From positions 1-44,557 of IMG/VR virus record IMGVR_UViG_3300037264_003055: a DNA stretch of 44,557 bases, one strand, 5' to 3'. The translations under genes and the position numbers were made by a program. Shown one piece after another: positions 4,706-41,818 of the stretch; within the stretch, counting starts at the first letter, position 1; each line of letters starts with the position of its first letter. The DNA is from a virus. The notes under the pieces were generated by a model. That model saw only the letters and a program-made list of their open reading frames with translations. It had not been told where the DNA came from and searched no databases.

Positions 4706-5240
4706 TTTTGACCTCGTACTCGGCGTCCACGGTGTCAACCGGCGGCGGCGGCAACAACTTCCTCGACGGCGGCCGCCCTTGAATTAGCTCCACCGGTATC
4801 TCGACCCCAACTTGTTTGGCTCGCTCAATAAGCTGCTCAATGGGCATCTGTTCGTAAGTCAGCTTGACTTCAGATTTCGTCGGCTGGTCGCTACCGAACA
4901 TCTTCGCCCGTCGCTCCATGATCCACAAACAGACTTCGACGGCTTTGACGTTTTCCTTTTCGGAGTCGAGAGCCCGGGGATACCAAACTGCCCACAATTT
5001 ATCGAGCCGTTGGTCTTCAAGGGCAACAAGTTTACCCCCGAGCTTTGACAACTCGGCTTGACGGGCTTTAAGCCCCTGGTCCAACAACTTGGCTACAGAG
5101 GTCGTAGAGACGACTCCCAACTCTGAGCTGATTTCCTTGTAGGTCAGCCCGCTTACCCGAAGAGCCATCGCCCTTTGAATCAACTCCTGTTTCCGTTGCT
5201 GGTTGTCGTTCTCCGGGGCCTTTATCACTCGTCTGGTCAT
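4689..5240 (-). CDS. terS: terminase small subunit
   Basis: A 183-residue protein with an N-terminal helix-turn-helix (residues about 26-50, ALRVSGLTYKEISSELGV) for recognition of the packaging site, a central helical oligomerisation region (WYPRALDSEKENVKAVEV, WIMERRAKMFG) and a Pro-rich C-terminus. This arrangement is typical of TerS proteins encoded immediately before TerL. The ATG at 5240 follows GGAGGCAAG. Its first 173 bases are overlapped in another frame by the C-terminus of the upstream nucleotide-hydrolase-like gene. Confidence 0.75.
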   Translation of the reverse strand: MTRRVIKAPENDNQQRKQELIQRAMALRVSGLTYKEISSELGVVSTTSVAKLLDQGLKARQAELSKLGGKLVALEDQRLDKLWAVWYPRALDSEKENVKAVEVCLWIMERRAKMFGSDQPTKSEVKLTYEQMPIEQLIERAKQVGVEIPVELIQGRPPSRKLLPPPPVDTVDAEYEVKNEAGV

Positions 5241-5640
5241 CTTGCCTCCGTAGTAACCCGATGTCGTCGAACTTGTGATCGAGGGCCCCGTCTTCTATCA
5301 TATGCCCGTGTTCCATAAGCTCGAAAGCGTTGAACACCACGGCGGCCAGGTGGTCCTCGGTGAACTCTTCCCCTATCTGACAGGCGTGACGACGAAGGGA
5401 GGACAGAGTTCGACTAAAGGGGGCCCCCTTCCTCCAGTTATTTCGATCATATTTGGCGGCCCCTCGCTCATAAAGCTGGGCCACCCGGAGGAGGGGGTAA
5501 TAGGGAAGCAGGGAGAAGTCCCCTTTATCCTTTTGCGTGTCCCTCACCATCCCGGTCTCAAACTGTTCCCGTTCCCCGCTGTCTTTGGTTACGAAGACAT
5601 CCCTGGTAGTCATCCCATCTTTACCCGTAAAGCTGGCCAT
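5068..5640 (-). CDS. dATP/dGTP diphosphohydrolase-like protein (DUF5664-like) with extended tail
   Basis: A 190-residue protein. Residues about 38-125 (LLRVAQLYERGAAKYDRNNW, then RRHACQIGEEFTEDHLAAVV and FNAFELMEHGH) match the DUF5664 family, a MazG-like four-helix NTP-pyrophosphohydrolase domain that clears host dNTPs. The domain is complete by about residue 130; the remaining 58 residues are polar and are encoded on top of the first codons of terS in a different frame. ATG 5640 overlaps the preceding stop (TGATG); GTG 5643 is an alternative start. Neighbouring genes also concern nucleotides. Confidence 0.7.
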   Translation of the reverse strand: MASFTGKDGMTTRDVFVTKDSGEREQFETGMVRDTQKDKGDFSLLPYYPLLRVAQLYERGAAKYDRNNWRKGAPFSRTLSSLRRHACQIGEEFTEDHLAAVVFNAFELMEHGHMIEDGALDHKFDDIGLLRRQDDQTSDKGPGERQPATETGVDSKGDGSSGKRADLQGNQLRVGSRLYDLCSQVVGPGA

Positions 5641-6134
5641 CACTCCGTTACCCCCGTGCTATAGGTAAATAAATCTTGAAACCTTTGCACACCGTTGGCT
5701 TGGGTGCCATCCACCCGACGAACCCAAGCCGCCGTCTTCGGGTCAACTACGTCGTCAAGGACGGGCAACTTCCCGTTGAATAACGGCTGCCGGCAAAGAA
5801 ATGCCTCCAACCCCATATATACCCGGATGTCCCACTCGGTTGCCCACCGACATTCTTCGTCCGCCCCCCTGGACGGGCCATTTAATCGGACGACCGCCCC
5901 CGCCATTTGAAGCCACTCTTTATCTACCCGGAGCCATTGGTCCCAACTTATTGGAGGGATGTCGTCGTCGGTTTCCAACCGAAGGGCCTGGTAAGCGGTC
6001 AGAGCTGGGCATAAGGGGGCGAACCCTTGATGAATTAAAATCGAAGAGGCGTCCATTGCCCGATCCACGTTTTCCCACTGAATGGGGCCGCTGCCGCCGT
6101 TGGTGATCGGGCCGGCGATGTAAACCCTTTTCAT
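5640..6134 (-). CDS. nucleoside 2-deoxyribosyltransferase-like (DUF4406-like)
   Basis: A 164-residue protein starting MKRVYIAGPITNGG, the YIAGPI signature of the nucleoside 2-deoxyribosyltransferase/DUF4406 superfamily. RLNGPSRGADEECRWA (about 83-98) supplies the SRGA..E catalytic/binding segment. Members cleave or exchange the base of deoxynucleosides. The C-terminal 50 residues are extra to the core fold. ATG 6134 overlaps the upstream stop (ATGA), with GGAGG ten bases before it. It forms a nucleotide-metabolism pair with the gene after it. Confidence 0.7.
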   Translation of the reverse strand: MKRVYIAGPITNGGSGPIQWENVDRAMDASSILIHQGFAPLCPALTAYQALRLETDDDIPPISWDQWLRVDKEWLQMAGAVVRLNGPSRGADEECRWATEWDIRVYMGLEAFLCRQPLFNGKLPVLDDVVDPKTAAWVRRVDGTQANGVQRFQDLFTYSTGVTE

Positions 6135-12238: not shown

Positions 12239-12304
12239 TCATCGGAAGGCGTTCAAAACAAGCCAGATGACGAGAACCCCCAGGATTACCTCCAAGGTCG
12301 TCAT
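12239..12304 (-). CDS. 21-residue membrane micropeptide
   Basis: Encodes MTTLEVILGVLVIWLVLNAF plus Arg: essentially one transmembrane helix with a short polar end. The ATG overlaps the exonuclease stop codon (AAATGA) and an AAGGA-type site lies upstream, so translation would be coupled. It is the last gene before the terminator. Function unknown; a small membrane effector or holin/antiholin-like helper is possible. Confidence 0.45.
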   Translation of the reverse strand: MTTLEVILGVLVIWLVLNAFR

Positions 12305-12906
12305 TTCTTCGTCCTTTCTAAAAAATCGTCCCAAAACTTCTGCTCCCCCTCCAACAGGTAGCTCATGTAGTCGGCGTCGGCTTTCACCACGACCAACGCC
12401 TTCCTGTTCTCTGAGATAAAGGTCGTGGAAGTCGAAAACGACCAGTAATGAAGCCGAGGAAGCCCCGTTACCAGCAGTTGATGTTGAACTTGGGGCCAAT
12501 ACTTCGTCGGGACCAACCCCTCGACCGCCGACCGGTGGTCATCTTTGTTGACACACTTGATCTCGACGGCAGTTTTTTCATCCCGAGAGAGGCCGTCAAG
12601 GGAAGCCCTCATCCAAGGGTACGTCTCATGGATAACACAAGCCGGGGTCACCTCGATGCCGGTGAGGTCAATATATGCCTGACGGGCTTCCGGCTCCATC
12701 CGGGTTCCCCTCAACATCGACTCCGTTTTGTTTTTATCAGAAACCCGATCTCGACAATGCCGATGACGAACCTTGTGGGCCAAAAGCTGTTCCCGGGTTT
12801 GCCAAGGGGACACCCCCAAGATGGCGGCGGCATCAGAGGCCCCGATGCCACAAGAACGCCAGATAAGCCATTCCTCCGACCCTTGTTCAAACGTTACCAG
12901 CTTCAT
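12301..12906 (-). CDS. YqaJ-type phage exonuclease (lambda Exo fold)
   Basis: A 201-residue nuclease with GIGASDAAAILGVSPWQT (about 20-37), RGTRMEPEARQAY (about 66-78), RASLDGLS and AVEIKCVN (E-x-K, about 116-123) and YWPQVQHQLLVTG, the standard order in YqaJ-domain exonucleases. It degrades one strand of duplex DNA to give 3' overhangs for the annealing protein encoded at 10667-11386. The ATG at 12906 is preceded by AAAAGGGGGAAG. Confidence 0.88.
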   Translation of the reverse strand: MKLVTFEQGSEEWLIWRSCGIGASDAAAILGVSPWQTREQLLAHKVRHRHCRDRVSDKNKTESMLRGTRMEPEARQAYIDLTGIEVTPACVIHETYPWMRASLDGLSRDEKTAVEIKCVNKDDHRSAVEGLVPTKYWPQVQHQLLVTGLPRLHYWSFSTSTTFISENRKALVVVKADADYMSYLLEGEQKFWDDFLERTKK

Positions 12907-13196: not shown

Positions 13197-13364
13197 TCAA
13201 GTCTTACAACGACATGACGGGGAGCAGGTACAGGTCGGGGAGCAACCACAACCCGCTCCAACGGTGTTATCGGACTCACACGGGCTATCTTTGTCGCAGT
13301 CCTTGCAACAGTTGCTACAGCCGACCCCAAGGGTCAAGGCAACCAAAAGTAACAGGGCCTTCAT
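13197..13364 (-). CDS. small cysteine-rich exported protein or lipoprotein
   Basis: A 55-residue protein: signal sequence MKALLLLVALTLGVGC, then a short mature part with 11 Cys in about 40 residues, spaced as CC, CxxC, GCGC and CTC (SNCCKDCDKDSPC). GVGC is a weak lipobox. The ATG overlaps the stop of the upstream serine protease (ATGA), with GGGAG upstream. It may be disulfide-bonded or metal-binding at the cell surface; a Cys-rich envelope mimic is speculation. Confidence 0.55.
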   Translation of the reverse strand: MKALLLLVALTLGVGCSNCCKDCDKDSPCESDNTVGAGCGCSPTCTCSPSCRCKT

Positions 13365-14164
13365 TTGACACACTCCCGAAGGAAACATGAGAACAACGCC
13401 TCCAAGGCCGACGCCCCCCTGCAACCCAGGGGCGGAGCCGGGTGGCTCCCAGGGTCGGCGGCACACTGAATTATACCCGTCAACCGGAAGGCCCGCCCCG
13501 TCCAGGCGAAAACCCCGGACCCCGAGGACCCATACCACCCCCGGCCTTGGATTACCAGGCACTTCTTGCCCCATCTATGGGCGACCGGGGTATCGGGGTG
13601 GGCGACAACCGCCCGCTCTACCAGGGGCATCCCCCACGGGTACCCGGAGAAGTAGACCTCTTGCCCGGCCGTGGGGGTAACCAGGGGGTCAAAGGGGTAG
13701 AGGACGAAAGCCGACGGGACCTCTGGGATAAACAGGGCCAAATCCAGGCCGGCTTCCGAATTCGGGGAAAAGACCGCCAACCGGGCTCGTCTGGTGACCA
13801 CCCCGTGGTCGGTATCCTGGCGGACGAAGATATACGGGCCGTCGTCAAATATCGTCATCGACCCCGACTTCCTGCCGGCGTCGCAGCCGATAATTTCATC
13901 GACAACATGGGCGGCGGTGACGATAACCGGGAGGCCGTCTACCAGGCCCTCGACCCCGGCCCCGCAAGGGGACTCCTTATCCCGGGGGCAGATCAAAAGG
14001 GAGGCATTCAAGACTTGAAGTTGAAGTAGCTTCGTCTTCTGGGCCTCCATGTTTTCAAGGGCCTGGGTGGCCACCCACGGGCAGAACTTGAACGTCACCG
14101 GGGCCACCGCCAACATGGCCCCGGTGTAAAGAACCCAAAACGTGGTCAAAAACAGGGTTTTCAT
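13361..14164 (-). CDS. exported trypsin-like serine protease
   Basis: A 267-residue protein with an N-terminal hydrophobic export signal (MKTLFLTTFWVLYTGAMLAV). The catalytic triad can be read: His86 in VTAAHVVDE, Asp141 in AGLDLALF and Ser214 in YGSSGSG. The S1 fold is of HtrA-like compact length with no PDZ domain; extra Cys residues (C59, C67, C94) suggest disulfides and a periplasmic location. The start overlaps the upstream stop (TAATG). It sits in the module where lysis genes are expected. Alternatives are processing of virion or envelope proteins. Confidence 0.75.
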   Translation of the reverse strand: MKTLFLTTFWVLYTGAMLAVAPVTFKFCPWVATQALENMEAQKTKLLQLQVLNASLLICPRDKESPCGAGVEGLVDGLPVIVTAAHVVDEIIGCDAGRKSGSMTIFDDGPYIFVRQDTDHGVVTRRARLAVFSPNSEAGLDLALFIPEVPSAFVLYPFDPLVTPTAGQEVYFSGYPWGMPLVERAVVAHPDTPVAHRWGKKCLVIQGRGWYGSSGSGVFAWTGRAFRLTGIIQCAADPGSHPAPPLGCRGASALEALFSCFLRECVK

Positions 14165-14460
14165 TACTTCACCACCGGGGGAACCACCGGAGCGATGTTG
14201 CCCAACTCCGGGACCTTGAGTTCGTCCAACACCTTATCGATGGCCTCGGCTTCGGCGATGATGGCCGCCCGAGCGAGGACGTTGCCGCCAAACCGTTTCA
14301 GGGCTTCTCGCACACAGAGGTCAAGGACCGGGCGACCTTTGATGTAAACCTCGGGTTCGGCGGCGTTGGGGTCCCGGACCCCGAGACCGGGGAAGAAATA
14401 CCGGACGGCCCAACCCGCCGCCAAGGCGGCGACATAGGCAAGGATTGTTTCAAGAGACAT
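14164..14460 (-). CDS. small membrane-anchored helical protein
   Basis: A 98-residue protein. MSLETILAYVAALAAGWAVRYF forms one N-terminal transmembrane helix, followed by a mostly helical domain (LCVREALKRFGG, RAAIIAEAEAIDKVLDELK) and a Pro/Val-rich end. Start overlaps the upstream stop (TGATG). Topology recalls phage spanin or holin-accessory proteins, but no family is recognised. Neighbours on both sides are exported or membrane proteins. Confidence 0.5.
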   Translation of the reverse strand: MSLETILAYVAALAAGWAVRYFFPGLGVRDPNAAEPEVYIKGRPVLDLCVREALKRFGGNVLARAAIIAEAEAIDKVLDELKVPELGNIAPVVPPVVK

Positions 14461-15263
14461 CAGTTGCTCCGTTTCCTAAAGAACAAGAAGACACCAATCC
14501 CCCCTAGCAAGATGGCCCACCAAGGCGGCAGCCATGAGAAGTCCCGTCCCTCTGTAACCCATTTCCAGATGGCAGCGAAGTCAACCTTAGCTGGGGTACG
14601 GAGGTCCGGGACCTTATTCGGATCGAAGTTGGCGGCCAAGAGGACCATATCGGCCGGCTTGAAGTCATATTGGATATGGACCACTTTTCCGCCGGGGGCC
14701 TGAAAGATCAGGGCTTTCCCAGAGCCTTTGAACTTCTCTGAAACATCGAGTTCAAACCTCTTAATTTGCCAGTCGGTCGCCTGATACCCGGAAAGTAGGA
14801 CATTCTGGGTAAACGGCCCGGCCGGGAGGGCGGAATAGGCTTCGTAGACCTGGGCCCGGAATTGATCGGGGCCGATAAAGGTCAGCCGCCATTTCACCGA
14901 GTCATCTTCCAGCTTCCCGTCGGCGGCCGCCAGGGCCTCTTCTCGGGAAACCTCTCGGCCGTTGACGACATATCGAGGCCGCTCGACCGGGCGAAGTTTA
15001 TCGACATCGACCCCGAAGTTGTCCACCGGGCCCTCTTTCACCTTGGGGCCGTCGGCGACTTTAACGGGGACCTTAACCCACGGCGGCCGAGTTTTCACCA
15101 ACTTGTCCCCCACGACGGCGTAGAATTCCTCCGTCTTGGGGTGATACCAGGCGACCACCCCGCCGCCGTAGTATTGATCCAGCCAGTAGTACAGCCAGCC
15201 GACATGTTGGCCGCCGGCTTTATACCACCCGGTCACCTGTCCCGTCACACGGACGGGCTCCAT
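14460..15263 (-). CDS. tail-anchored protein of unknown function
   Basis: A 267-residue protein without an obvious signal peptide but with a C-terminal anchor (WWAILLGGIGVFLFFRKRSN). The body is aromatic-rich at the N-terminus (GWLYYWLDQYYGGG), has a central segment RPRYVVNGREVSREEALAAA, and a beta-rich domain before the anchor. The anchor plus Arg/Lys tail resembles surface-protein stop-transfer sequences, without a sorting motif. ATG 15263; a run of G residues about eight bases upstream can act as ribosome binding site. Confidence 0.5.
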   Translation of the reverse strand: MEPVRVTGQVTGWYKAGGQHVGWLYYWLDQYYGGGVVAWYHPKTEEFYAVVGDKLVKTRPPWVKVPVKVADGPKVKEGPVDNFGVDVDKLRPVERPRYVVNGREVSREEALAAADGKLEDDSVKWRLTFIGPDQFRAQVYEAYSALPAGPFTQNVLLSGYQATDWQIKRFELDVSEKFKGSGKALIFQAPGGKVVHIQYDFKPADMVLLAANFDPNKVPDLRTPAKVDFAAIWKWVTEGRDFSWLPPWWAILLGGIGVFLFFRKRSN

Positions 15264-15296
15264 CGGGGAAACCCCCGGTGGACAGCCACCAGGCCC

Positions 15297-15374
15297 TCAG
15301 CCGGCTTCAACTTTGTGACCGAGGGACATCAAACCGAGGGCAACCAAAAGGGGCAGACTCATAAATGTCTTCAT
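15297..15374 (-). CDS. 25-residue signal-peptide-like micropeptide
   Basis: Encodes MKTFMSLPLLVALGLMSLGH followed by KVEAG. It has the n-, h- and c-region and a VEA-G cleavage-like site of a Sec signal peptide, but almost nothing follows. AGG lies five bases before ATG 15374. It may be a membrane peptide or the remnant of a lost exported gene; no larger frame continues it. Confidence 0.35.
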   Translation of the reverse strand: MKTFMSLPLLVALGLMSLGHKVEAG

Positions 15375-15412
15375 CGACCTGACTCCAAACTTGGAGGACA
15401 CCCGCCGGGGCC

Positions 15413-15547
15413 TCAGACATCGGGCGGCTGATAACATGACGAAACGGCGGCGATCACGAAACATCCCAAAGCCGCGAGGAAGAAGACCCACCCCGTTAAT
15501 TGGTCGGCATAGGAGGGGGCCCAGGATTCAGGAGGATGACCGCCCAT
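15413..15547 (-). CDS. 44-residue single-span membrane protein
   Basis: Starts MGGHPPESWAPSYADQ, then one transmembrane helix (LTGWVFFLAALGCFVIAAV) and a short tail with Cys (SSCYQPPDV). It overlaps the end of the cysteine peptidase gene by 52 bases in another frame. GGAAGG lies about eight bases before ATG 15547. Size and topology fit small phage membrane proteins such as holin-like peptides, but identity is not established. Confidence 0.4.
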   Translation of the reverse strand: MGGHPPESWAPSYADQLTGWVFFLAALGCFVIAAVSSCYQPPDV

Positions 15548-16104
15548 CCCCCGCCCTTCCCCAGGTAGGCCCTCTTGAACTCGGTCTCGTTCATCCATTC
15601 GATGTTCTCCGGGAAGTTGTTATCCAAGATACCCCACCACTTGTTGTCAACATGAACAAGGTTGACCATATGAGCAACGGTTCCACGGTATCGACCGGTA
15701 GGGGACCAACAATAAGTAATTGAAGGCATCTTTCCAGATCGACAAGCCACCTTGAGAATCTCAACGTCGTTGCCCTGAACTTGGAGGTACTTGGGTTTGG
15801 TGGCCCTTTTCTCCTTACAGAGCCGTTCAACCATCTGGTCAACCTTTTCAGGATACCCGCCGCCGGGGTACTTCTTCATCCAATCCCGAAAATCCATGAG
15901 AAGGGGGACATCTTGGTATCGAGCCGAATGGGCGATGGACGTGAAGACACAAAGGCCGGCCCCGTCTGAGCCCCCACAATTTTTCAACCGAAGGGAAGCC
16001 GGGAGGGAACATTGAGCCGGCGTCTTATCGGGGGTTTCGTCTCCGCCGACTGAGGCCCCGACGGCGACCGCTACCAGAAGCCAAGTCCAGAAATTTGTCA
16101 TCAT
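15496..16104 (-). CDS. exported papain-like cysteine peptidase
   Basis: A 202-residue protein with a signal peptide (MMTNFWTWLLVAVAVGASVG). The catalytic Cys is probably C52 in GAGLCVFTSIAHSARYQD, the His H145 in HMVNLVHVD, and the third residue N162 or D161 in WGILDNNF, the order of papain/transglutaminase-like enzymes. Extra Cys residues suggest an extracytoplasmic enzyme. The start ATG-ATG (16104/16101) follows AAGGAA; the in-frame start at 16137 would fall before the transcription start and is rejected. First gene of the exported-protein unit. Confidence 0.65.
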   Translation of the reverse strand: MMTNFWTWLLVAVAVGASVGGDETPDKTPAQCSLPASLRLKNCGGSDGAGLCVFTSIAHSARYQDVPLLMDFRDWMKKYPGGGYPEKVDQMVERLCKEKRATKPKYLQVQGNDVEILKVACRSGKMPSITYCWSPTGRYRGTVAHMVNLVHVDNKWWGILDNNFPENIEWMNETEFKRAYLGKGGGWAVILLNPGPPPMPTN

Positions 16105-16135
16105 TTTCCTTACAAATGTAAGCCGTACCACGGAC

Positions 16136-16164
16136 ATTATAACTTGTCAAGGGAGAAATTCCAA
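16136..16164 (-). promoter_or_regulatory. promoter of the exported-protein unit
   Basis: On the minus strand TTGGAA (16159-16164), a 17-base spacer and a perfect TATAAT (16136-16141). The predicted start leaves a 5' leader of about 25 bases before the peptidase ATG. A CCAAAAGGGGG motif lies just upstream of the -35 box (about 16174-16184), immediately after the stop of the glycine-rich gene. Confidence 0.75.
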
Positions 16165-17214: not shown

Positions 17215-17612
17215 TAGTAATCTCCCCCGCCGTCAAGGGCAACTGAGAATGTTTCAGCGTTATGAGTGGAACACTTCACGACATCAGCGGCCCCAAAAAC
17301 TAATCCAGCGGGGGGAAACCATTCATAAGAGGCCGCTTCAATAGATGTAGATGGAGTGAGAGCAGGGATTAGAAATTCCTTAATTAACTCAAAATTTCCA
17401 GACCCCGCGACTTGATTAAACAACCGGACTACACCGACCGTAGTCGTGCCTTCGGCCTGAATTCGGATACCCTTATAAAAGGCCCCGTTGGCACCTACTA
17501 TAACCAAGGTCCCTAGTGTCCCCGTTCCGTCACGAGCGGTGTTGGCGGTAGCTATGCGAACTTGAGGTCGCTTGGGAGTAAGGACGAAAATTGGGGACGT
17601 GTTGGCAGCCAT
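17214..17612 (-). CDS. small virion protein between fibre genes
   Basis: A 132-residue protein starting [20 protein letters not shown], with a beta-rich pattern (GTLGTLVIVGANGAFYKGIR, GVVRLFNQVAG). Similar small proteins with MAANTSPIF starts accompany fibre genes in several phages, but I cannot give a function. Both ends overlap neighbours in TAATG form, so it is translated with the collagen-like fibre and the glycine-rich protein; a fibre accessory or capping role is plausible. Confidence 0.55.
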   Translation of the reverse strand: MAANTSPIFVLTPKRPQVRIATANTARDGTGTLGTLVIVGANGAFYKGIRIQAEGTTTVGVVRLFNQVAGSGNFELIKEFLIPALTPSTSIEAASYEWFPPAGLVFGAADVVKCSTHNAETFSVALDGGGDY

Positions 17613-19771
17613 TAGACAAACCTTTCAAACCAAAAAACGACATTTACGTTATTAGGTCCAGTAGGTCCAGTAGGTCCAGTTATCCCAGTCGGGCCCGTCG
17701 GTCCCGTGGGGCCAGTTGGCCCAGTTGGTCCAGTTGGCCCCGTTTCCCCAACCGATCCAATGGGACCAGTTGTCCCCGTGGGACCAGTCGGACCCTCGGG
17801 AACCGATGCCCTCAAGGGGTCGGCCACAGACCCGTCGCCAGATAGCCCGGCTCCCCTTTGAATCTTCCAGTCGCTAACAGCGGGGTCATTCCATGCCTCA
17901 ATCAAGCCCCCGACTGACCCGTCTGTGCGAAGGAAGTTAGATTCGCTACCGTCGCCTCTAAGGCCCCCTCCCCGCTGAATCTTCCAATCCGACGTAGCTG
18001 GGTTGGTCCCTGACTCAATCAAGCCCCCGACTGACCCGTCTGTGCGAAGGAAGTTGGTTTCAGAACCGTCCCCCCTCAAACCTCCGCCTCTTTGAATCTT
18101 CCAATCCGACGTAGCTGGGTTGTTCCCCGACTCGATTAAGCTGCCAGAGGACCCGTCTGTGCGAAGGGGGTTGGGAGCCGATCCGTCCCCACGAAGGCCA
18201 CCGTTAATGACCCAATTCGGCCCAGTGGGACCGGTCGGCCCCGTAGGACCAGTTGGACCAGTTGGTCCAGTTGGCCCAGTAGGACCGGTGGGACCCGTTT
18301 CCCCAGTTGGCCCAGTTGGGCCAGTACAACACGGCCCAGTTGGCCCCGTTTCCCCAGTTGGCCCGGTATATCCCGTGGGTCCTGTATATCCGGTTGGCCC
18401 GGTATATCCCGTGGGTCCTGTATATCCGGTTGGCCCGGTATATCCAGTCGGGCCAGTATATCCCGTGACCCCAGTTGGCCCGGTATATCCCGTGGGGCCG
18501 GTTGGCCCAGTCGGGCCGCCTGAGCCGGAACGATAGTCGGCGACCACGATCTCCGACGGTTGAATTCGAGTTGAGACCTCTTCCTTCCGATACAACCAGT
18601 TGACCTGCCCAGAGCCCGGCTCGATCTTCCAGTCCATCACCCCGACTACCTTGAGGTCGATATATCGGCGGCCGGACCATTGGTCGAAATCGACGGCGAA
18701 CTTGGCGGTACAATTCGTCAACGCGATGACGTTATCGGGGGCCCCGGCTCCGTCGGACCCCTCGGGGTATTCGGCGGCGACCACGGATTTGAACATCTTC
18801 GTCCCGATGTTCCCGGCCCCCGTGGTCGTTTGCTCGTACTGAAGATGCTGATGGGACGGGTCGGGGTCGGTGATCGGGGCCCAGTCATTCGGGGACGCCT
18901 GGGAGGTCTTCTTATACTTCGGGTAAAGGCATTTATAATCGGCCGGGGAACGGACGTGTGATTCATTCGCAGCGAATAGGCCGCCGCTGTGGGCCCTCCA
19001 GAGGGCACCCGCTGAAGCCGGGAGGTTGGCACACTGAGCCCGAGCTAGCTGGATTTCAAAGTCAGCTTCGGCGACATCGGGGTTGTAAAGGTGAACGGTC
19101 CCATCAAGCTGGCGGGCCACCCGCTGGCCAACCATGTAAGCGGCCACTTCCAAGATCGGGGGAACCGGCTGGTAGCTGATTTCAAAGAGGTCAAACGGCT
19201 GTAGGTAGGCGGCGTCGATGGGGTCTTGAACCCATGTCCCGGTTGGAAACGGGGACAAGGCGGCCTGGAGGACGCCGAAGATGTCCCCCCACGTCGTCAC
19301 CTTGTCAACGACGGAAACCTTGCCAAGGAACCTCGACCACCACAGAAACCGTTCGTCCACCAAGGTAATGAGCCAAAGGGCCTTCCCTTCGGAACCGGGG
19401 ACGATTCCAAGGGGACGGGCCGGCAACATGTACATCAGCGGGGCGATCTCTCCCCGGAGGTCATTTTGTTCGTCGTACCAAGTAAGCTCCAACGGCTGGG
19501 GAACCCATATACCAGAGGAGCCGTTGGTCAACGGCTCGATGCCGGCCAACATCTCAGCCGAGCAAACGTAATGGGCGGCCGCCCACGATGTCGCCCCGGC
19601 CGGCCAGTAAAGGCGACCGATCTCAACTTGTTTGTCAACCGTGAACCCGTGACCGGCCGCCCACTGACGACGGGCGAAGTCATAGGCATCCCCGACGGAA
19701 ATCCGCCGACGAATCCAGTCGGCTATCTCCGGGGTCTCAAGCCCAAGGCAAACACCTGCGTACTTTAACAT
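17612..19771 (-). CDS. tail fibre with collagen-like repeats
   Basis: A 719-residue protein in four parts: a globular N-terminal attachment-type domain (about 1-430), a Gly-Pro-Thr/Gly-Tyr-Thr collagen-like stretch, three 39-residue repeats beginning GLRGDGS and ending DWKIQRG, and a second collagen-like stretch before a short C-terminus ([10 protein letters not shown]). Collagen-like GXY repeats form trimeric rods in phage fibres. ATG 19771 has AAGGGG five bases upstream; TTG 19774 is the alternative. Receptor-binding parts are probably the following two genes. Confidence 0.8.
17849..18199 (-). repeat. three tandem 117-bp repeats inside the fibre gene
   Basis: Units run 18199-18083, 18082-17966 and 17965-17849, with a truncated fourth copy starting at 17848. 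Each encodes 39 residues from GLRGDGS through LRTDGS to [11 protein letters not shown]. Differences are concentrated in the middle of the unit (SAPNP, SETNF, SESNF). Expansion or contraction by recombination would change fibre length. Confidence 0.85.
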
Positions 19772-19807
19772 CAAAGCCCCTTAAAGCGAACAAAAGGGGA
19801 GACCCCT

Positions 19808-28678: not shown

Positions 28679-29188
28679 TTACGGGCCAGTCGGACCAGTC
28701 GGGCCAGTCTCACCAGTCGGACCAGTCGGACCAGTCGGACCAGTCGGCCCGGTTCCGCCAGTCGGGCCGGTGGCCCCAAGATTTCGGAAGTCGATCACGA
28801 CAACTCGAATCTTATCTTTATCGATCCCGCCTTGGAGGGCGTAGGCCCCGGCGAAGTAGTCGCCGCCGCCAAGGATTTCGCCCATGCCGGAGTCGTCGGC
28901 CGCCGGGGTCAACTTATCGCCAGGGGCAACGGTTTCGTTGATTTCCAACAGACATTGGGCCCCGAGGCCGAACACCTGAATGGGGTCATACTGTTCGGCG
29001 GCAACGGTCGAAGTTACCCCGGACAACCCCGGTGGAAACTTCTGGCCTTCTTGGGAGATACCGACCGGGTTGGTGTCCGCCGGGCAGGTCTTCACCATGA
29101 GCCCGGTTGTCACCGAGGTATCAAGGCAGACGAATCGGCACGGCTCGATGTCGGCGTTCGCCATGTAGGCAGGATTTTCAAGTCCCAT
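28679..29188 (-). CDS. head decoration protein with collagen-like tail
   Basis: A 169-residue protein. The first 135 residues resemble small decoration/stabilisation proteins ([40 protein letters not shown]; a [15 protein letters not shown] segment as in DUF2190-type proteins). The last 30 residues are Gly-Pro-Thr repeats ending at the stop. It lies directly before the major capsid gene, as decoration proteins do. Collagen-like capsid decorations are known (SPP1 gp12). AGGAG lies nine bases before ATG 29188. Confidence 0.65.
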
Positions 29189-30589: not shown

Positions 30590-33586
30590 TTAGTTCCCCC
30601 TTTTGGCCGCCCTGGCGGCGACGGCAGCAGGGGAAGGTTTGGCGTCGGGGTCCTTTAGGTAGCCCCGAATCTTCGACAGCGCCGACCGCTTTCGTTCCCC
30701 TTGGTTTTCCACCCCGATGCCGTGGGCCGACAGGCGATCTTTGATCTTTTGAATTTCCGACTTGTCGTCAAGTTGGACCATCTGGCTTCGATCTCGGCTC
30801 TTGTCGGTATCAAGCTGAGCCCGGGCCTTTTGGTGGGGTTCGCGGTCTCGGGGGGTCTGCCCCTTTTCGGAGCCAAGGCTTCGGTTTCCCTTAGCCCGGC
30901 CCGATGGGGTCCCTTTGCCTTCGTTCTCTGCCAGAATTCGTTGCCGCTTGATGGCTTCCTCCCGTTCGGCGTTAAATTTGGCGAACCCTTCGGGGTCGTG
31001 GGACATTTGAAGGAAGCGGGCCATCTGAACCGGGCCGGTGTCCATGATTTCCTCAGACTTCGACGACGGGTAGCCGGCGGACCCCGAAGAGTTCACCTTC
31101 GGTCGCCCGGGGAGGGTTTTCGAGGGGATGCCTTTATGCCAATTTTTCGAGGAAAGTTCGGCGGGCTCCATCTTGTCGGCCTGGGGGTCCTGTCCCCTGT
31201 CCTTCTTTACCCGAGATTGGTCGGCTCGGCCTGAACCGGGGGTCCCGTGGATGTTTCCCTGGGTGTACATCGTCCGGACCTTTTCGTGTCGGGTGGTTTC
31301 ATCGAAGTGGCGGTGGCCAACTTCGGGGAGATGGCTGCCAGAAGTTGGGGAAATCTTAACGGCCCCCTTCTTCCCGGTTGTCCCCTTCCCGGTGTTATAA
31401 AGGGCGGTGTGGGACTTCTGAACCGGGGTCACCTGGACCACCTTCGTCTTATTGGGGTCCTCGGTTGAGTTCTCTCGCCGGCCTTCGTGGCCAGCCAGCG
31501 GCAACTTGTCGGCTTCCCGATAGGAGCCGACGTGACGGGCGGCGGCCTCGCGGTTGACGGCCCGTTCTTTGTCACCTTCTCGGATCATCTTCCAGTCTTC
31601 GGGTTTAACCCCGCCGGCGACCCGGCCGCCGATAACTAGGGAGCCCTTGGGCTTTGTACCGGAGGCGGAGAACAAAAGGGGTGACCCCTTTCGCCGAAGC
31701 TGCCTGGGACCTTCTGGCATAGGGGCCTCTTGAGTTGGAATGGGTTGGGTTTTGGCTTTCTCGGTCCTTCGTCGGGCGATAATTCGATCCACGACCTTGT
31801 GGCTGTGGGACGGGATTTTGTTGGCGATGTTTAACACCCCGGGGTGGCCGACAGCTTTATCGGCATCGGGGTCGGCGTAGTAGTCGCCGACTTTCTGAAT
31901 GTTTTCGTGGATTGCCGAATGAGTTCCGCCTTCTTCTGCGGCGGTGTCCAGCCGGGCTTTGATCGAGGGAGATTGATAAAGGGGAACCGACCCCGAGAGG
32001 TTGTACATCTCTTTGCCGTTCATTAGCTGGACGGCTTCCTCTGGGGGGACCTTCCGTGCGATCTTGTCTCGCAGGAACCTCATGGCGAACCATCGGGCAG
32101 CTTGGGCCCCAGCTTGGGTCCAGGTCCCGGCCCCGAATCGGGGGTGACGGGGTTCGGGGTTGTTCTCCTCTTTGTTTAACTCCTCGACGGTTTGCCCGCT
32201 TCGGCCTTCCAGGTGGTGATAGGTGGCCCCCTTGGGTGGGGCGTTCTCGGGCAGCCCGTGGGCTCGGGCCTCGTGGCGGTCAGCCGTGAGGTAGCCCGTG
32301 TGGCCGAGGATGTTCATTAGGAAGGAATGAGCTTTCCACAACCCCGGGGTCTTGGTCAGCTTTTCGGTGGTAAAGGGGTCCGTCCAGGCTTCGGGGTTCG
32401 ACAACACCTTGGTGGCCAGGCTGATATGGGCCCCGGGGTAGACAATCGGGGCCTTGGTCCAACCAGATCGAAGGTGGATGAATTTTTGATCCCCTTCGGC
32501 TTTCATCAGCCTTTGACCCCGGAGTTCCGCCACCGGGTAATCCTGGGGGTAAGTCATCCCAGGGTCCGCTTTGGCGTAAGCCATCAACATGGCCCCGATT
32601 TTCTTGGGGTCCCTTGTCTTGGGCTCGATCTTTTCCCCGTCCAATTCCACCCCCATGCGATGAAGGCGGTCGATGTCTTCGGCAGCTTGGACGTTGGGGA
32701 GGATTCCGTTATTTGGAGAGAACGAGGCCACCAAGCCGGCTTTCCGGTAGAAAGCCATCGGATCGGGGTCGTGGGAAACCGAAGACCGGAGGATGTCCCG
32801 GAGTTCGTCGTACCAATGTCGCCCGTGACGGCCGGCCCAAGTCAGGGCCATCATATCTTTGATCTTGTTGAGACCTTTCGCGGCCTTCTGGATCGCCCGA
32901 CCCCGGCTGTGAGTTACCTGGGCTTCCGGAGTTAGGTGGCGGTCGATCCACTTCTCGTGGTTTTCGACTTCGTTCTCAGGGGCCACGTTGAAGTTGAACG
33001 ATGGGTGGGTTTCCCCCGGTTCCCGGGCCATCGTCTGAGAGGGGGCCTTGCTCCCCTTTTGTTGAAGGGCCGTCGTCATCGCTTCAGCGATCTCAGAGGC
33101 CGCCTTCTTGATTCGATGTCGCCGGCGGTTGCCCCGAGATAGCTTCCGAGCGGTTTCTTTCTCAAAGGGAACCCAAGCCAAGGCATGGGTGGCCCCGTTG
33201 GCTGCCAGGGCATCCAGGCGGTGGTGGCCGTCGTGAACTGTCATCTTGTTGTCGCCGGGTTTGTTGAAGACAGACAACGGCTGGACCCCACGTTCTGGGG
33301 CGACCCCCGAGCCTTGGGCTTTCCGGACCTGTTGGGAATATCGTTGGACTATTTCGGGATTCCGAAAGCGTTGGTTGGAGGGATCGAGGTCAGACAACTG
33401 GAATCGATTTAACTCCATCGGGCCGTCCATCGACGTCAAGTAGGTTTTCCCTTTGACTTGTCGCTTCGAGCCCACCGGTAGCTTGGAGATGAATTCATGG
33501 AGGCCGACGGTTCCGGCATGGAAGCCAACTTCGGCCTCCCTGGCCTCCCGGGTCTCTGGTGTCTCCCTCTTACTCGGGGTAGCCAT
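30590..33586 (-). CDS. very large ParB/Srx-like multidomain protein, candidate virion-delivered protein
   Basis: A 998-residue basic protein. Residues about 50-150 form a ParB/sulfiredoxin-like domain (LDPSNQRFRNPEIVQRYSQQ, then VHDGHHRLDALAANGATHAL with the GHHRL signature). A second block around 260-300 (AGRHGRHWYDELRDIL, KAGLVASFSPNNGILPNVQA) resembles a phage domain of unknown function (DUF7178-like). The last 400 residues are polar, Lys/Arg/Gly-rich and probably disordered. Length, basic charge and the place in the head module suit a polyvalent-type protein packaged with DNA and injected. AGAGGGGA lies upstream of ATG 33586. Confidence 0.55.
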   Translation of the reverse strand: MATPSKRETPETREAREAEVGFHAGTVGLHEFISKLPVGSKRQVKGKTYLTSMDGPMELNRFQLSDLDPSNQRFRNPEIVQRYSQQVRKAQGSGVAPERGVQPLSVFNKPGDNKMTVHDGHHRLDALAANGATHALAWVPFEKETARKLSRGNRRRHRIKKAASEIAEAMTTALQQKGSKAPSQTMAREPGETHPSFNFNVAPENEVENHEKWIDRHLTPEAQVTHSRGRAIQKAAKGLNKIKDMMALTWAGRHGRHWYDELRDILRSSVSHDPDPMAFYRKAGLVASFSPNNGILPNVQAAEDIDRLHRMGVELDGEKIEPKTRDPKKIGAMLMAYAKADPGMTYPQDYPVAELRGQRLMKAEGDQKFIHLRSGWTKAPIVYPGAHISLATKVLSNPEAWTDPFTTEKLTKTPGLWKAHSFLMNILGHTGYLTADRHEARAHGLPENAPPKGATYHHLEGRSGQTVEELNKEENNPEPRHPRFGAGTWTQAGAQAARWFAMRFLRDKIARKVPPEEAVQLMNGKEMYNLSGSVPLYQSPSIKARLDTAAEEGGTHSAIHENIQKVGDYYADPDADKAVGHPGVLNIANKIPSHSHKVVDRIIARRRTEKAKTQPIPTQEAPMPEGPRQLRRKGSPLLFSASGTKPKGSLVIGGRVAGGVKPEDWKMIREGDKERAVNREAAARHVGSYREADKLPLAGHEGRRENSTEDPNKTKVVQVTPVQKSHTALYNTGKGTTGKKGAVKISPTSGSHLPEVGHRHFDETTRHEKVRTMYTQGNIHGTPGSGRADQSRVKKDRGQDPQADKMEPAELSSKNWHKGIPSKTLPGRPKVNSSGSAGYPSSKSEEIMDTGPVQMARFLQMSHDPEGFAKFNAEREEAIKRQRILAENEGKGTPSGRAKGNRSLGSEKGQTPRDREPHQKARAQLDTDKSRDRSQMVQLDDKSEIQKIKDRLSAHGIGVENQGERKRSALSKIRGYLKDPDAKPSPAAVAARAAKRGN

Positions 33587-33837
33587 TACTTCCCCTCTTT
33601 ACCGGGATAAGTCTGACCGATGACGGCGGCGTCGAAAGCGAGCTTGTCTACCTCTGTCCACCGAGTCAGCCCGATCACGGGCTTTAGCTGGAGGTAGTGG
33701 CGGTTTAACACCGTTCGCTTGCCGACGACGACGAAACCGAGTTTGACGTTGATGGTGGAATCGACGTCAACCTTCGACTGCCCCATGCAACCAGACAGCC
33801 CGAAGACGACAGCCAAACAAGGGACAAACTTCAACAT
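33586..33837 (-). CDS. small lipoprotein
   Basis: An 83-residue protein with a lipoprotein signal (MLKFVPCLAVVFGLSGC; lipobox LSGC, lipidated Cys at 17) and a 65-residue mature part with alternating hydrophobic residues (INVKLGFVVVGKRTVL). AAGGA lies seven bases before ATG 33837 and its stop overlaps the next start (TAATG). An outer-membrane lipoprotein could serve superinfection exclusion or spanin-like roles; neither is shown. Confidence 0.6.
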   Translation of the reverse strand: MLKFVPCLAVVFGLSGCMGQSKVDVDSTINVKLGFVVVGKRTVLNRHYLQLKPVIGLTRWTEVDKLAFDAAVIGQTYPGKEGK

Positions 33838-33962: not shown

Positions 33963-34943
33963 TCAAATTGGTTTCATGGAGGACAAAATTTGATCTATGT
34001 CCAAGAAAGCCAACTGAGGCCAACACTCGTTGGTGGTGAAGCTGACGACGGCTCGCCCGGAGGCTTCGTCCAGGGTTAGCCCGCCGGCGAATTCGAGCCC
34101 CTTGTGTCGGAAGCGAAAAGAGGGGCCAATTCGGGTATTGGAGAAATCTTTGTTCAAAAGGACGAAGTAGTGAATATACTGCCGCCCTGTATATCCGTCA
34201 AGATATAGGACTTCATGGACCAAATAGAGCCAAAATGGCCCCAGATCGAGAACAGGTGTCGATCCCCTTGGTCCCGTGGGAGCAAGTTGATTGTCTCCAA
34301 TGAGCTGGCTAACTAGCCCGTTATGGGGATTTAGACGAAGGACAACCAGGGGGTTGGTATTATAGATGAAAAACGGATCATCCCCCCAAACCCCGGGTAA
34401 CCAGTTCTTTTGATGACAGTCTGGGCGGACATCCAAAAGGTGAGCCTTCTTGATGTCAAAGTTGTCGTCGAAGGATAAAAGGGTCTCTTTACAAATTCCC
34501 CCGGGGTGTAAGAAGTTGCTTGTAGCTGACCCCCAAAACTGCCCCCGACAGCGGAATAACCGACAGTCTTCATATCCAAGGACCCAACTTGGATATGTCG
34601 GCGAATTTGAGTGATCTTCAACCTTGTGCCAGGCGACCGGTATGTAGGATGAGTTTAGCTCAAAAGCATAATTTTGGGTACGAAATATGCCATCCGAGCT
34701 TAGGGAACAAAACAGCCCGTCGCGGATGACGTAGTTGAGCCGGCGGATGATTCCAAATTTTCGTCCCCGTCCGGTCCAAATTGAAGGAAGGCTGAATCGC
34801 CACTCTTCATTTGAAGCCGGAGGGGGAACTAGGATGTCTTGAAAAGTTACAGAAGGGTAGCGAACTTGAATAGGAAGGGGGGCTTCTAGCCCGTTCCACT
34901 CCCGTGTTGACGAAATCCAATCAATGGTGGTAGGAGTGAACAT
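33963..34943 (-). CDS. beta-propeller glycosidase/phosphorylase-like protein
   Basis: A 326-residue protein with repeated aromatic strands and the motif WVLGYEDCRLFRCRG (about 119-133), close to the ED(P)R segment of GH130/GH43-like five-bladed propellers, followed by NWLPGVWGDDPFFIYNTNPL and VLYLDGYTGRQYIHYFVLLN. No signal peptide. It should bind or process a sugar; catalytic residues cannot be fixed by eye. It overlaps the preceding glycosyltransferase by 23 bases. Codon use is more AT-rich than in the head genes. Confidence 0.5.
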   Translation of the reverse strand: MFTPTTIDWISSTREWNGLEAPLPIQVRYPSVTFQDILVPPPASNEEWRFSLPSIWTGRGRKFGIIRRLNYVIRDGLFCSLSSDGIFRTQNYAFELNSSYIPVAWHKVEDHSNSPTYPSWVLGYEDCRLFRCRGQFWGSATSNFLHPGGICKETLLSFDDNFDIKKAHLLDVRPDCHQKNWLPGVWGDDPFFIYNTNPLVVLRLNPHNGLVSQLIGDNQLAPTGPRGSTPVLDLGPFWLYLVHEVLYLDGYTGRQYIHYFVLLNKDFSNTRIGPSFRFRHKGLEFAGGLTLDEASGRAVVSFTTNECWPQLAFLDIDQILSSMKPI

Positions 34944-35574
34944 ATTTCCACGGAGTTAGATTTGTACCAACTGGAAGATATGAGGAACGAATAGAAGGGA
35001 CCGCAATACACACCTTCTTGGCGGCATGAGTTAAAGCTGTCCGACAAATATCGGCCCCCCAGTTAGGAAATTCTTGTGGATATGGGGATTGACGACAAAG
35101 TTCGGGGCGAAATCCCATAATGCCCCCATGTATGTAAGGGGAAGCATAATAGGGAGTATGTTTCATATTTGCCCAAACCCAAGACCCCGGTCCCACTCCA
35201 TCGGTACGCCAATCTCCCGTTAGCCCTACTTCATCCGAGTCCTGAAGAGGCTTCAAGAGGTCAACAACCCATGTTGGGTTAAGCATACGCCCATGCCGGG
35301 TACACAAATAAACCCCCAAGTCCCCGTGACATAGTTGAATCGCCCGGTTAGCTCCCGGGGCGTTCAACAAGTTGTTTCCTTGTTGCCATTCATAAGTTGT
35401 CGGAATGGGCAGATTTTGAAGAAATCGATAAACTTCCAGCATCGGACGTAAGGAGTTGTCAACAAATATCAACTCCGAAGACTCGGGGTAACAATCTAAG
35501 GACGCGGACACCCCCGCTAATACGTCCAAGACGTGTTCTTCCTGTTCAAATCCGACCATTATGGTAGAAATCAT
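34921..35574 (-). CDS. GT-A fold glycosyltransferase (family 2-like)
   Basis: A 217-residue protein. MISTIMVGFEQEEHVLDVLA opens the first strand and helix, SSELIFVDNSLRP is the D-N-S sugar-nucleotide motif, and NLLNAPGANRAIQLCHGDLG followed by YLCTRHGRMLNPTW is the conserved GANRA and metal-site region (Cys-Thr-Arg-His in place of DXD). A C-terminal GGIMGFRPEL matches the acceptor side. ATG 35574 overlaps the aminotransferase stop (ATGA). The missing classical DXD could indicate metal-independent or altered activity. Confidence 0.65.
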   Translation of the reverse strand: MISTIMVGFEQEEHVLDVLAGVSASLDCYPESSELIFVDNSLRPMLEVYRFLQNLPIPTTYEWQQGNNLLNAPGANRAIQLCHGDLGVYLCTRHGRMLNPTWVVDLLKPLQDSDEVGLTGDWRTDGVGPGSWVWANMKHTPYYASPYIHGGIMGFRPELCRQSPYPQEFPNWGADICRTALTHAAKKVCIAVPSIRSSYLPVGTNLTPWKYVHSYHH

Positions 35575-36635
35575 TGCCAACGCTCCAATAAGGTGACGAT
35601 ATTGTCCAACTCGTTTAATGAAACCCACCACCCAATTGGAATGGATAAGTTTGAACTAGCAAACTCATCCACCCCTGGTAGGGAATAGATACGTTTGGCG
35701 GCCTTTGCAAAAGCCGGTTGGGTATCATTTCGTCGATGGACTGGAGATGAAGCAACGCCGTGGGTAGCAAGATACCGACGCAAGCGATCACGTTCGTCAA
35801 CAATCAGGGTATATAACCAATAACTAGAATACCCCGTGGGCGAGTTAGTCGAAATTTTAGCATTTGTCGTCAAGACACGGGAGAGATGGTAGGCATTACG
35901 TTGGTGAATATGAACGGCATTTCTTGCCCCAGCAAGATTTGTAAGGCCAATTGTAGCCGCGATATCATTCATATGATATTTGAAGCCCGCTTCTTCAATT
36001 GACTGCGAGCAGCGAAAAGCTGTCTCTTTCGTTCTGTCAAGCCCAAACCACCGTAATTTTCTTGCCCTGTCCTCTTCTCCCGCTGGGACTAATAGGGTCC
36101 CCCCGTCCCCAGTAGTCAGAAATTTGATAGCTTGAAAGCTAAAACATACATAATCGCCGCCAGTTTTGGGTAAAAAACAATGAGCCGCGTCTTCTATAAC
36201 CGGCAGGCCCAAGGCCCCAAGGCGTTGATAATCACACGGTTCTCCCCCCCAATTCACCGCCAGGATAGCTTTTGTTTTTTTTGTCCGCTTCCGGGCAACA
36301 TCTAACGGGTCCAAGTTTCCGGTCCTTGGGTCCACATCCGCCCAAACTGGCGTGATCCCACGATGAATTAACGGAACAATTGTGGCCGCACATGTCATCG
36401 GGGTTACAATGATTTCATCCCCATTCCTCGCCCCAATAAGCTGAATGGCTAAATCAATAGCCGATGTACCAGAATTAGTTGTAACCACTCGTTCTTGAGG
36501 AATTTGAAACATTTGAGCTAAACTTGCTTCAAATTTCTCAACTTGTGCCCCTTGTCCGATGTATCCGCTATTCAAAACCTCCGTGATCGCTGGCCCGATT
36601 TCAGGAGACATCAAGACCTTAAATAATGAGATCAT
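35571..36635 (-). CDS. DegT/DnrJ/EryC1-type sugar aminotransferase
   Basis: A 354-residue PLP enzyme. GYIGQGAQVEKFE near residue 24, TTNSGTSAIDLAIQL (cofactor phosphate binding), VIEDAAHCFLPK (D149) and the PLP-lysine segment FSFQAIKFLTTGDGG (K171) are textbook DegT motifs. Such enzymes make amino sugars on nucleotide carriers (keto sugar plus glutamate). ATG 36635 has GGAGA five bases upstream; the frame to 36692 is a run-on. With the GNAT encoded before it, it could produce an N-acylated amino sugar. Confidence 0.88.
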   Translation of the reverse strand: MISLFKVLMSPEIGPAITEVLNSGYIGQGAQVEKFEASLAQMFQIPQERVVTTNSGTSAIDLAIQLIGARNGDEIIVTPMTCAATIVPLIHRGITPVWADVDPRTGNLDPLDVARKRTKKTKAILAVNWGGEPCDYQRLGALGLPVIEDAAHCFLPKTGGDYVCFSFQAIKFLTTGDGGTLLVPAGEEDRARKLRWFGLDRTKETAFRCSQSIEEAGFKYHMNDIAATIGLTNLAGARNAVHIHQRNAYHLSRVLTTNAKISTNSPTGYSSYWLYTLIVDERDRLRRYLATHGVASSPVHRRNDTQPAFAKAAKRIYSLPGVDEFASSNLSIPIGWWVSLNELDNIVTLLERWQ

Positions 36636-37059
36636 GTTTCTCCAAAATAGAACACTCGCCGAAGGCAGAAAAACGAGACCGACAAACCTCAATAAATCCC
36701 AAACTCAGGGCATTTTTCTTTGCCGGCGTATTGATATGCAATATCTCGGCTTTCCACGGGGGGGTAGACGCCTTCAACACTTGCCTAAGAATTTCCTTCC
36801 CATACCCCTTTCCTCGGGCCTCAAGAGCTAACCCGTGTGTTGTCCAATTAAACCCATCTCTTGGGGTAACATATCCAAATCCAACGACGGGGTCACCGAA
36901 AAGATAAATTTTTACGCTTGGGTCCCGGGTCTTCCACCACCTGGATTGGGCCTCGGGGGTGATATACGCTTGCGACCCGGTTAGGAAATTACTACACGAA
37001 TTACGAAGCTCTCGCAAGGTTTCAACGTCGTCTTCGGACTGAACGAGTGTCATCTTCAT
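36619..37059 (-). CDS. GNAT N-acetyltransferase
   Basis: A 146-residue protein. HGLALEARGKGYGKEILRQV is the acetyl-CoA binding R-G-x-G-x-G/A motif A of GNAT enzymes, followed by ILHINTPAKKNALSLGFIEV, the typical N-x-x-A-x-x-L-G-F end. Placed immediately before the sugar aminotransferase, it is a likely sugar N-acetyl(acyl)transferase. ATG 37059 has GGGAGG seven bases upstream; the first frame residues from 37098 belong to another gene's region. Confidence 0.8.
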   Translation of the reverse strand: MKMTLVQSEDDVETLRELRNSCSNFLTGSQAYITPEAQSRWWKTRDPSVKIYLFGDPVVGFGYVTPRDGFNWTTHGLALEARGKGYGKEILRQVLKASTPPWKAEILHINTPAKKNALSLGFIEVCRSRFSAFGECSILEKHDLII

Positions 37060-38480: not shown

Positions 38481-38551
38481 TCCCCCGTCGTCCAACGGCA
38501 GGACCTCGATCTTATACGTCGATGACTCGGGTTCGACTCCCGGCGGGGGTA
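38481..38551 (+). tRNA. tRNA-Ile (anticodon UAU)
   Basis: Folds as a cloverleaf: D stem GTCC/GGAC with loop AACGGCA, anticodon stem TCGAT/GTCGA with loop CTTATAC (anticodon TAT), T stem TCGGG/CCCGG with loop TTCGACT, and acceptor CCCCCG/CGGGGG. The first acceptor pair would be U-U. No CCA is encoded. A TATAAA at 38468-38473 could be its -10 box. It would read the rare AUA codon. Confidence 0.8.
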
Positions 38552-38588
38552 TCGAAGACGTCGTCATCTCGGCCCGGTCCCCCACCCA

Positions 38589-38659
38589 GCCCCGGTAGCT
38601 CAACGGCAGAGCCCCTGTTTTGTAAACAGGAGACCCCGGCTCGACACCGGGCCGGGGCT
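38589..38659 (+). tRNA. tRNA-Thr (anticodon UGU)
   Basis: A complete cloverleaf: acceptor GCCCCGG/CCGGGGC, D stem GCTC/GAGC with loop AACGGCA, anticodon stem CCTGT/ACAGG with loop TTTGTAA (anticodon TGT), T stem CCCGG/CCGGG with loop CTCGACA. The T loop starts with C instead of T at position 54, an oddity. No encoded CCA. It reads ACA and neighbouring Thr codons. Confidence 0.88.
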
Positions 38660-38734
38660 TGCCTTCAACAGGTTATCGACGCCAGCGGTTGTGGATCGCC
38701 GGGGAACGAAGGTGACACACAAAAGAGGAAACTC

Positions 38735-40416: not shown

Positions 40417-40454
40417 CGTATCCCCCTTTGAAGATGTTTCGTTCCCAACACTCA

Positions 40455-40483
40455 ACTATAGGTCGCCGCCGGCCCGAAGTCAA
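40455..40483 (-). promoter_or_regulatory. early promoter, copy 1
   Basis: On the minus strand TTGACT, 17 bases, TATAGT (40455-40460), then the shared leader TTGAGTGTTGGGAACGAAAC. The spacer differs from the other copies (GC-rich). Confidence 0.8.
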
Positions 40484-40497
40484 GTAAATTCGAGGGC

Positions 40498-40734: not shown

Positions 40735-40773
40735 TGCTTCCCTTTCATCAAGTTCGTGTTTCGTTCCCAACAC

Positions 40774-40953: not shown

Positions 40954-41026
40954 CTTGGTTCCCCTTTCCCACCGCCGCCCAGACCGGGCCAACGGGGCCG
41001 ATGAAACCCCGCCCGCCCGGTCGATG

Positions 41027-41179: not shown

Positions 41180-41199
41180 CGTTCGCTCCCCTTTCGTCA

Positions 41200-41661: not shown

Positions 41662-41726
41662 AAGTTCCCCCCTATCGAACGCCCCGTCGATCCACCCGCT
41701 TGAGCTGGTTTCGTTCCCAACACTCA

Positions 41727-41755: not shown

Positions 41756-41818
41756 GTTATTCGTCAACCTTTTCAAGGAACACCGCCCTGTTCATCGAAA
41801 GGAAACACGGTCCCCCAC

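Follow-up and report, generated by a model that had tools for sequence, protein, structure and literature searches.

Papain-fold domains of several types (CHAP, NlpC/P60, C39 and Pei) are well known in endolysins (PMC10318531), and a C39 peptidase domain is also found in PeiR, the lytic enzyme of the methanogen provirus phi-mru (PMC6189367). Our literature search found no description of how phages lyse Planctomycetes, which have a Cys-rich protein wall in addition to peptidoglycan (PMC8567305, PMC4432640, PMC10632474). The highest scores in a planctomycete wall preparation were those of Cys-rich YTV proteins (PMC8567305). The peptidoglycan of these bacteria is lysozyme-sensitive and contains diaminopimelic acid (PMC4432640), and most genes for its synthesis are dispensable in Planctopirus limnophila (PMC10632474). 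Here we analyze a gene cassette at positions 13,197-16,104 of the virus record IMGVR_UViG_3300037264_003055, a linear stretch of 44,557 bases (hereafter the window) that is possibly incomplete. An earlier annotation made from these letters alone (the original prediction) had described the cassette as a promoter-led, exported two-protease module in the position of a lysis cassette. Our analyses make it somewhat probable that the region is a planctomycete-phage lysis cassette, in which a C39-like cysteine peptidase serves as the endolysin.

Fold and family of the papain-like peptidase

The papain-like identity given to one of the exported proteins is upheld by a confident AlphaFold2 model (pLDDT 90.8, pTM 0.85), in which Cys63 starts helix 63-74, and by the fold neighbors of that model. 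VIA-align retrieved 302 chains at Z ≥8, with papain-superfamily enzymes at the top. The nearest solved folds were the pseudomurein endoisopeptidase PeiR and papain-like contact-dependent inhibition (CDI) toxins (Z 12.8-13.5), together with phytochelatin synthase, CtaG and C39 peptidases. The best Foldseek matches were phytochelatin synthase Alr0975 and CtaG (E 4e-5 and 2e-4), and the nearby viral models in BFVD included annotated endolysins of Gordonia and Mycobacterium phages (E 4e-4 and 2e-3). CHAP and NlpC/P60 chains were absent from the top VIA-align rows, which does not exclude them as relatives. The window peptidase matched no Pfam or PHROG family, none of the 36 family members examined matched Pfam C39, C1, CHAP, NlpC/P60 or C71, and no wall-binding domain was recognized in the peptidase.

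We number residues on the 213-amino-acid open reading frame (ORF) at 15496-16137. The original prediction chose the Met at 16104 as the start, with AAGGAA immediately upstream, so that its Cys52, His145 and Asn162 are our Cys63, His156 and Asn173. Its catalytic Cys and His hold, both being invariant in the alignment of 36 representatives, as are Asp172 and Asn174. Its Asn is found in 35 of the 36, and since Asp172 is found in all of them, Asp172 is more likely than Asn162 to be the third catalytic residue. The modeled fold and the Cys-His-Asp/Asn order place the protein in the papain superfamily (clan CA), with peptidase activity as the predicted function; the papain fold is also used by acyltransferases. 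The family thus defined appears to be a previously undescribed, C39-like branch of papain-fold proteins.

Conservation with a thioredoxin-fold partner

Single-sequence searches with the window proteins found nothing in viral contigs or GenBank phages. Relatives were reached through the capsid protein, namely G001 (29 kb, capsid 55% identical) and G007 (38.6 kb, 61%), both of which have a papain-like gene at the corresponding position and no trypsin-like gene. Only an alignment-based search, made with three sequences, opened the family, which is encoded by at least 91 IMG/VR contigs and was absent from the GenBank phages of the searched collection. Because 91 or more other viral contigs have homologous cassettes, the clustering noted in the window is not a chance arrangement. 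Two of the relatives are probably complete genomes because they end in exact terminal repeats, of 97 bases in G007 and of 127 bases in G446 (49.7 kb).

In G001 the papain-like gene is fused in one ORF to a homologue of a second protein of the window cassette, and the window protein is 31% identical to the C-terminal half of that fusion (E 1e-14). The family model of this partner has a thioredoxin fold at residues 208-302 (Z up to 9.9, over residues 210-303) and a transmembrane helix at the C-terminus. None of the aligned members has a CxxC motif at the start of the first helix, where a redox-active thioredoxin would carry it. The original prediction had called the window protein tail-anchored; the anchor is there, and an in-frame signal peptide is split off upstream by a single TGA at 15297-15299. 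The corresponding gene of the complete relative G007 is uninterrupted and includes the signal peptide. The TGA may be a sequencing error, a real mutation or a leaky stop. Recoding was considered and rejected, with downstream RNA folding no better than that of shuffled sequences (z -0.45) and TGA ending 11 of 34 genes here.

Among 37 representative loci, the peptidase and partner domains are fused or adjacent in essentially all, and form one polypeptide in about half. Fused and split states require five changes on the tree, with at least three of them forced by supported branches, which points to several independent fusion or fission events. This repeated rearrangement, combined with constant adjacency, is strong comparative evidence that the two proteins act together. 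The trypsin-like protein, in turn, was found in 3 of 52 records, lying inside the cassette in the window and in G424 and elsewhere in the record in G428. Homologous phages therefore keep the peptidase and its partner and not the trypsin-like gene, and we rejected the two-protease module as a conserved unit. As judged from gene content, the conserved unit is the papain-like enzyme with its thioredoxin-fold, membrane-anchored partner, and the trypsin-like protease is an accessory of this phage.

Genomic position and search for another endolysin

The window carries a Mu-type portal, TerL, DNA polymerase A, YqaJ exonuclease and capsid and tail genes. Its structural and replication genes are on the minus strand, as are the cassette genes, which are present as originally named. 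The cassette lies between the tail-fiber genes (16.2-19.8 kb) and the YqaJ exonuclease gene (12,301-12,906), and the same order is seen in G001, G007 and the circular G446. This slot supports the earlier view that the genes occupy the position of a lysis cassette. The accompanying claim of a promoter did not hold up: sigma-70-like matches were no commoner than expected by chance, and the candidate ahead of the cassette was rejected.

No peptidoglycan hydrolase was recognized by Pfam in G007, in a scan of its proteins other than the capsid protein and a small number of ORFs that are very short or on the opposite strand, or in G446, in a scan of its ORFs of at least 90 amino acids except two large ones. 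Amidase_2 was found in none of 28 cassette records. The original prediction that the window has no classical endolysin agrees with Pfam, with the qualification that the record may be incomplete, and the same absence extends to G007 and the scanned G446 proteins. The papain-like peptidase is thus the only recognizable candidate lytic enzyme in the complete G007 and in the proteins scanned in G446. One apparent exception was rejected as a label artifact. The PHROG family 2252, which bears the label “endolysin; inhibits RNA polymerase”, hits the window ORF at 5068-5643 as well as G007 and G446, and 11 of 17 records other than the window gave matches; the ORF in question belongs to the dATP/dGTP diphosphohydrolase family (PF18909), and no Amidase_2 was found. 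Automatically annotated phage genomes may acquire a spurious endolysin through this entry.

Two capsid-related phages without the peptidase family of the window, G003 (contig C13, 8643-11242, locus L144) and G006 (contig C15, 99420-101217, L148), carry in a comparable slot a papain-family C1 peptidase with no visible signal peptide, beside small membrane-protein genes. Searches of the Protein Data Bank (PDB) with their sequences returned cysteine proteases (E 2e-7 for G006 and 4e-4 for G003). Homology of these peptidases or their neighbors to the window family was not detected by hhalign, leaving a shared superfamily only, and the likeness of the neighbors to thioredoxin was seen by eye only. 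An exchange of lytic enzymes would produce the pattern seen in these two cases only, with different papain-type enzymes in a comparable slot. A relative of the G006 C1 peptidase (31.5% identity, E 4e-27) is encoded in the 595-kb uncultured phage LR756511.

Association with Planctomycetota

Five capsid relatives were found in genome assemblies, four of them in metagenome-assembled genomes of Planctomycetota and the fifth in a metagenome-assembled genome labeled Gammaproteobacteria. The peptidase family itself occurs in 4 of 392 Planctomycetota genomes vs 0 of 398 from Pseudomonadota. Three of the matching Planctomycetota loci (G396, G388 and G340) resemble prophages and show the two genes in the same order. 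In G396 the peptidase gene is on a contig of 7.7 Mb that also has a lambda-type portal and a GpA-type terminase, and the next gene encodes an exported partner with a membrane anchor, recognized by the second-domain profile (E 4e-7). In G388 and G340 the two-gene order is visible and the partner falls below the threshold of that profile. The different phage lineage represented by G396, together with the gene order in G388 and G340, argues that the cassette is common to different phage lineages of a single host phylum. The hosts, by these genomic associations, are probably Planctomycetota, and the peptidase family could serve as a marker for recognizing planctomycete phages in metagenomes.

A proposed role in lysis

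We infer a lysis function because the fold neighbors of the peptidase include phage lysins, the cassette occupies a late-gene slot and the complete relatives have no Pfam-recognized hydrolase, and because capsid-related phages without this peptidase family carry C1 peptidases beside membrane-protein genes. In the mechanism that we propose, the papain-fold cysteine peptidase would be exported by its own signal peptide and anchored at the periplasmic face by the thioredoxin-fold partner, which a C-terminal helix would fix in the inner membrane. Late in infection the peptidase would cut peptide bonds of the load-bearing envelope, either in peptidoglycan peptides or in the Cys-rich protein wall, and small membrane proteins, possibly holins, would permeabilize or depolarize the membrane. 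The membrane-anchored partner could substitute for a spanin pair. In the window phage, the trypsin-like protease and the Cys-rich peptide may add further envelope-directed activities.

Several observations weigh against this proposal. No holin was recognized among the cassette genes and no spanin was identified, and the two recurrent families of small ORFs described below (F3 and F8) have no Pfam family above cut-off and no match in GenBank phages. The window's own partner gene is stopped right after its signal peptide. The absence of another endolysin depends on the sensitivity of Pfam, with the two large G446 ORFs outside the scan. Finally, a signal peptide and a membrane anchor would fit superinfection exclusion as well.

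Within the lysis proposal, the substrate separates two versions. Papain folds of the C39, CHAP and Pei types also cut peptidoglycan or pseudomurein peptides. For this reason, and because Planctomycetes have peptidoglycan, the envelope target may be either that polymer or the protein wall. It is quite possible, although short of probable, that the enzyme is a conventional peptidoglycan endopeptidase, that the trypsin-like gene is an unrelated moron and that the protein wall is irrelevant; this is a sub-case that differs in substrate only. The familiarity of papain-fold endolysin domains (PMC10318531) and the lysozyme-sensitive peptidoglycan of Planctomycetes (PMC4432640) speak for it, but no family member has a CHAP or NlpC/P60 Pfam match or a recognized wall-binding domain, and the window and G424 encode additional exported proteases. 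The bolder version is that planctomycete phages lyse their hosts by proteolysis of the disulfide-rich protein wall, instead of or besides cutting peptidoglycan, through an anchored papain-like enzyme with a thioredoxin-fold partner and sometimes with a trypsin-like protease and Cys-rich peptides. We offer it tentatively and consider it rather unlikely as a whole. It is a long-standing question which of the two, peptidoglycan or the protein wall, holds planctomycete cells together. Since the target of a lytic enzyme is the polymer that has to be broken for the cell to burst, the substrate of the peptidase would test this question directly.

A role outside lysis, in superinfection exclusion or envelope remodeling, is improbable. 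An anchored peptidase could destroy a surface receptor or the injection apparatus of a rival phage, as the signal peptide and C-terminal membrane anchor of the fused forms would allow, and the pair is kept both by phages that have no recognized integrase and by prophage-like regions. Genes of this kind are usually variable accessories, yet the pair is conserved across phage lineages, where it sits among late genes and the complete relatives have no other recognized lysis enzyme.

Less probable still is that the peptidase processes Cys-rich exported peptides of the phage, acting as effectors, in the way that C39 leader peptidases of bacteriocin transporters do. C39 peptidases are among its closest folds, and Cys-rich segments are enriched in the papain-like and thioredoxin-fold genes (7 of about 55, vs 5 of 259 other large ORFs; p = 0.0014), with small Cys-rich exported ORFs near several cassettes. 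This enrichment and these neighbors suggest that the Cys-rich exported peptide of the window, present as originally noted, is probably part of the cassette system. Nevertheless, the scan for Cys-rich segments found no such peptide in most cassettes, no ABC (ATP-binding cassette) transporter was noticed in them, and in several relatives the Cys-rich segment is fused into the papain-like or thioredoxin-fold protein, as part of the enzyme polypeptide. A virion-associated enzyme, either a maturation protease or a tail-borne entry enzyme, is very unlikely, since the signal peptides and C-terminal anchors, and a partner that is a thioredoxin-fold membrane protein, are unfit for virion proteins even though the gene directly follows the tail-fiber genes.

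Other genes of the cassette and the window

The remaining cassette features are given in Table 1. The secreted trypsin-like protease fits its original description, with the named triad in place. The 98-amino-acid protein is possibly holin-like; it shares its slot with a small hydrophobic ORF of G007 (14787-15071), to which it is weakly similar (25% identity). Small single-span ORFs are usual beside the cassette in relatives, with the families F3 (LNGYKTYLAAAGLIGLALYQFSQG...) and F8 (GWKTTEFWQTLILQ...) present in seven and five representative loci, respectively.

Table 1 Features in and next to the cassette, in positions of the window
Feature	Positions	Strand	Basis or remark
Cys-rich exported peptide (MKALLLLVALTLGVGCSNCCKDCDKDSPC...)	13197..13364	-	Start is Met at 13364
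Exported Trypsin_2 serine protease	13361..14164	-	PF13365, E 2.8e-9; His86/Asp141/Ser214
98-amino-acid N-anchored helical protein, candidate holin	14164..14460	-	Hydrophobic N-terminus; slot shared with G007 ORF
Thioredoxin-fold, C-terminally membrane-anchored partner	14460..15263	-	Homology to G001 fused protein; family model
Signal peptide MKTFMSLPLLVALGLMSLGHKVEAG, terminated by TGA; same frame as partner ORF	15297..15374	-	G007 gene continuous
Small single-span ORF, hydrophobic segment LTGWVFFLAALGCFVIAAVSS	15413..15598	-	ORF and sequence; overlaps 3' end of peptidase gene
Exported C39-like papain-fold cysteine peptidase (predicted)	15496..16104 (ORF open to 16137)	-	Model, fold matches, invariant catalytic columns
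Sigma-70-like promoter match, TTGGAA-17-TATAAT (rejected)	16136..16164	-	1 found vs 1.0 expected

Two lipoprotein-like ORFs were noted away from the cassette. One, Cys-rich, overlaps the TerS-TerL junction of G001 (L002, 1229-1495). The other is a small ORF in the head gene region of the window (33586-33837, MLKFVPCLAVVFGLSGCMGQ...), distant from the cassette, that could be an outer-membrane lysis component. Collagen-like Gly-Pro-Thr repeats occur in a tail-fiber protein of the window (17612-19774) and where a capsid-decoration-like protein ends (28679-29188). A region of low guanine-cytosine content at 33963-36692 encodes a DegT-family aminotransferase (35571-36692) and two glycosyltransferase-like or sugar-related neighbors, perhaps for surface-sugar modification. 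Two tRNA genes, for Ile (anticodon TAT) and Thr (TGT), lie on the plus strand at 38482-38660. The small-ORF region at 40433-43772 contains five copies of an 81-nucleotide repeat, spaced about 0.3-1 kb apart and consisting of the core GTTTCGTTCCCAACACTCAA followed by TATAGGTC or a close variant; these are possibly repeated early promoters.

Comparison with known systems

The closest described counterpart is PeiR, which shares the papain fold (Z 13.5 and 12.8, root-mean-square deviation 2.8-3.2 over 143-146 residues) and, in the role proposed here, the viral use of a cysteine peptidase as the lytic enzyme. The two differ in sequence, with about 12% identity, and in setting, with PeiR having pseudomurein-binding repeats and an archaeal host and the window family a signal peptide and, as partner, a membrane-anchored protein of thioredoxin fold. 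C39 peptidases, the endolysin of Gordonia phage OneUp and LysA of Mycobacterium phages belong to the same fold class, as the BFVD matches indicate, but form no common sequence family with the window peptidase, for which Pfam C39 is unmatched. To our knowledge, a membrane-anchored thioredoxin-fold partner is not known from C39 or actinobacteriophage papain-like lysins. The phytochelatin synthase Alr0975 and CtaG, papain-superfamily acyltransferases or ligases that gave the best Foldseek matches, are 8-14% identical to the peptidase and act in other reactions and other contexts. In general layout, the cassette resembles Sec-exported endolysins (with a signal peptide or a signal-anchor-release (SAR) sequence) that work with holins, having an exported putative lytic enzyme beside small membrane proteins, and differs from them in that the enzyme would belong to an undescribed family and has a thioredoxin-fold membrane anchor as its partner.

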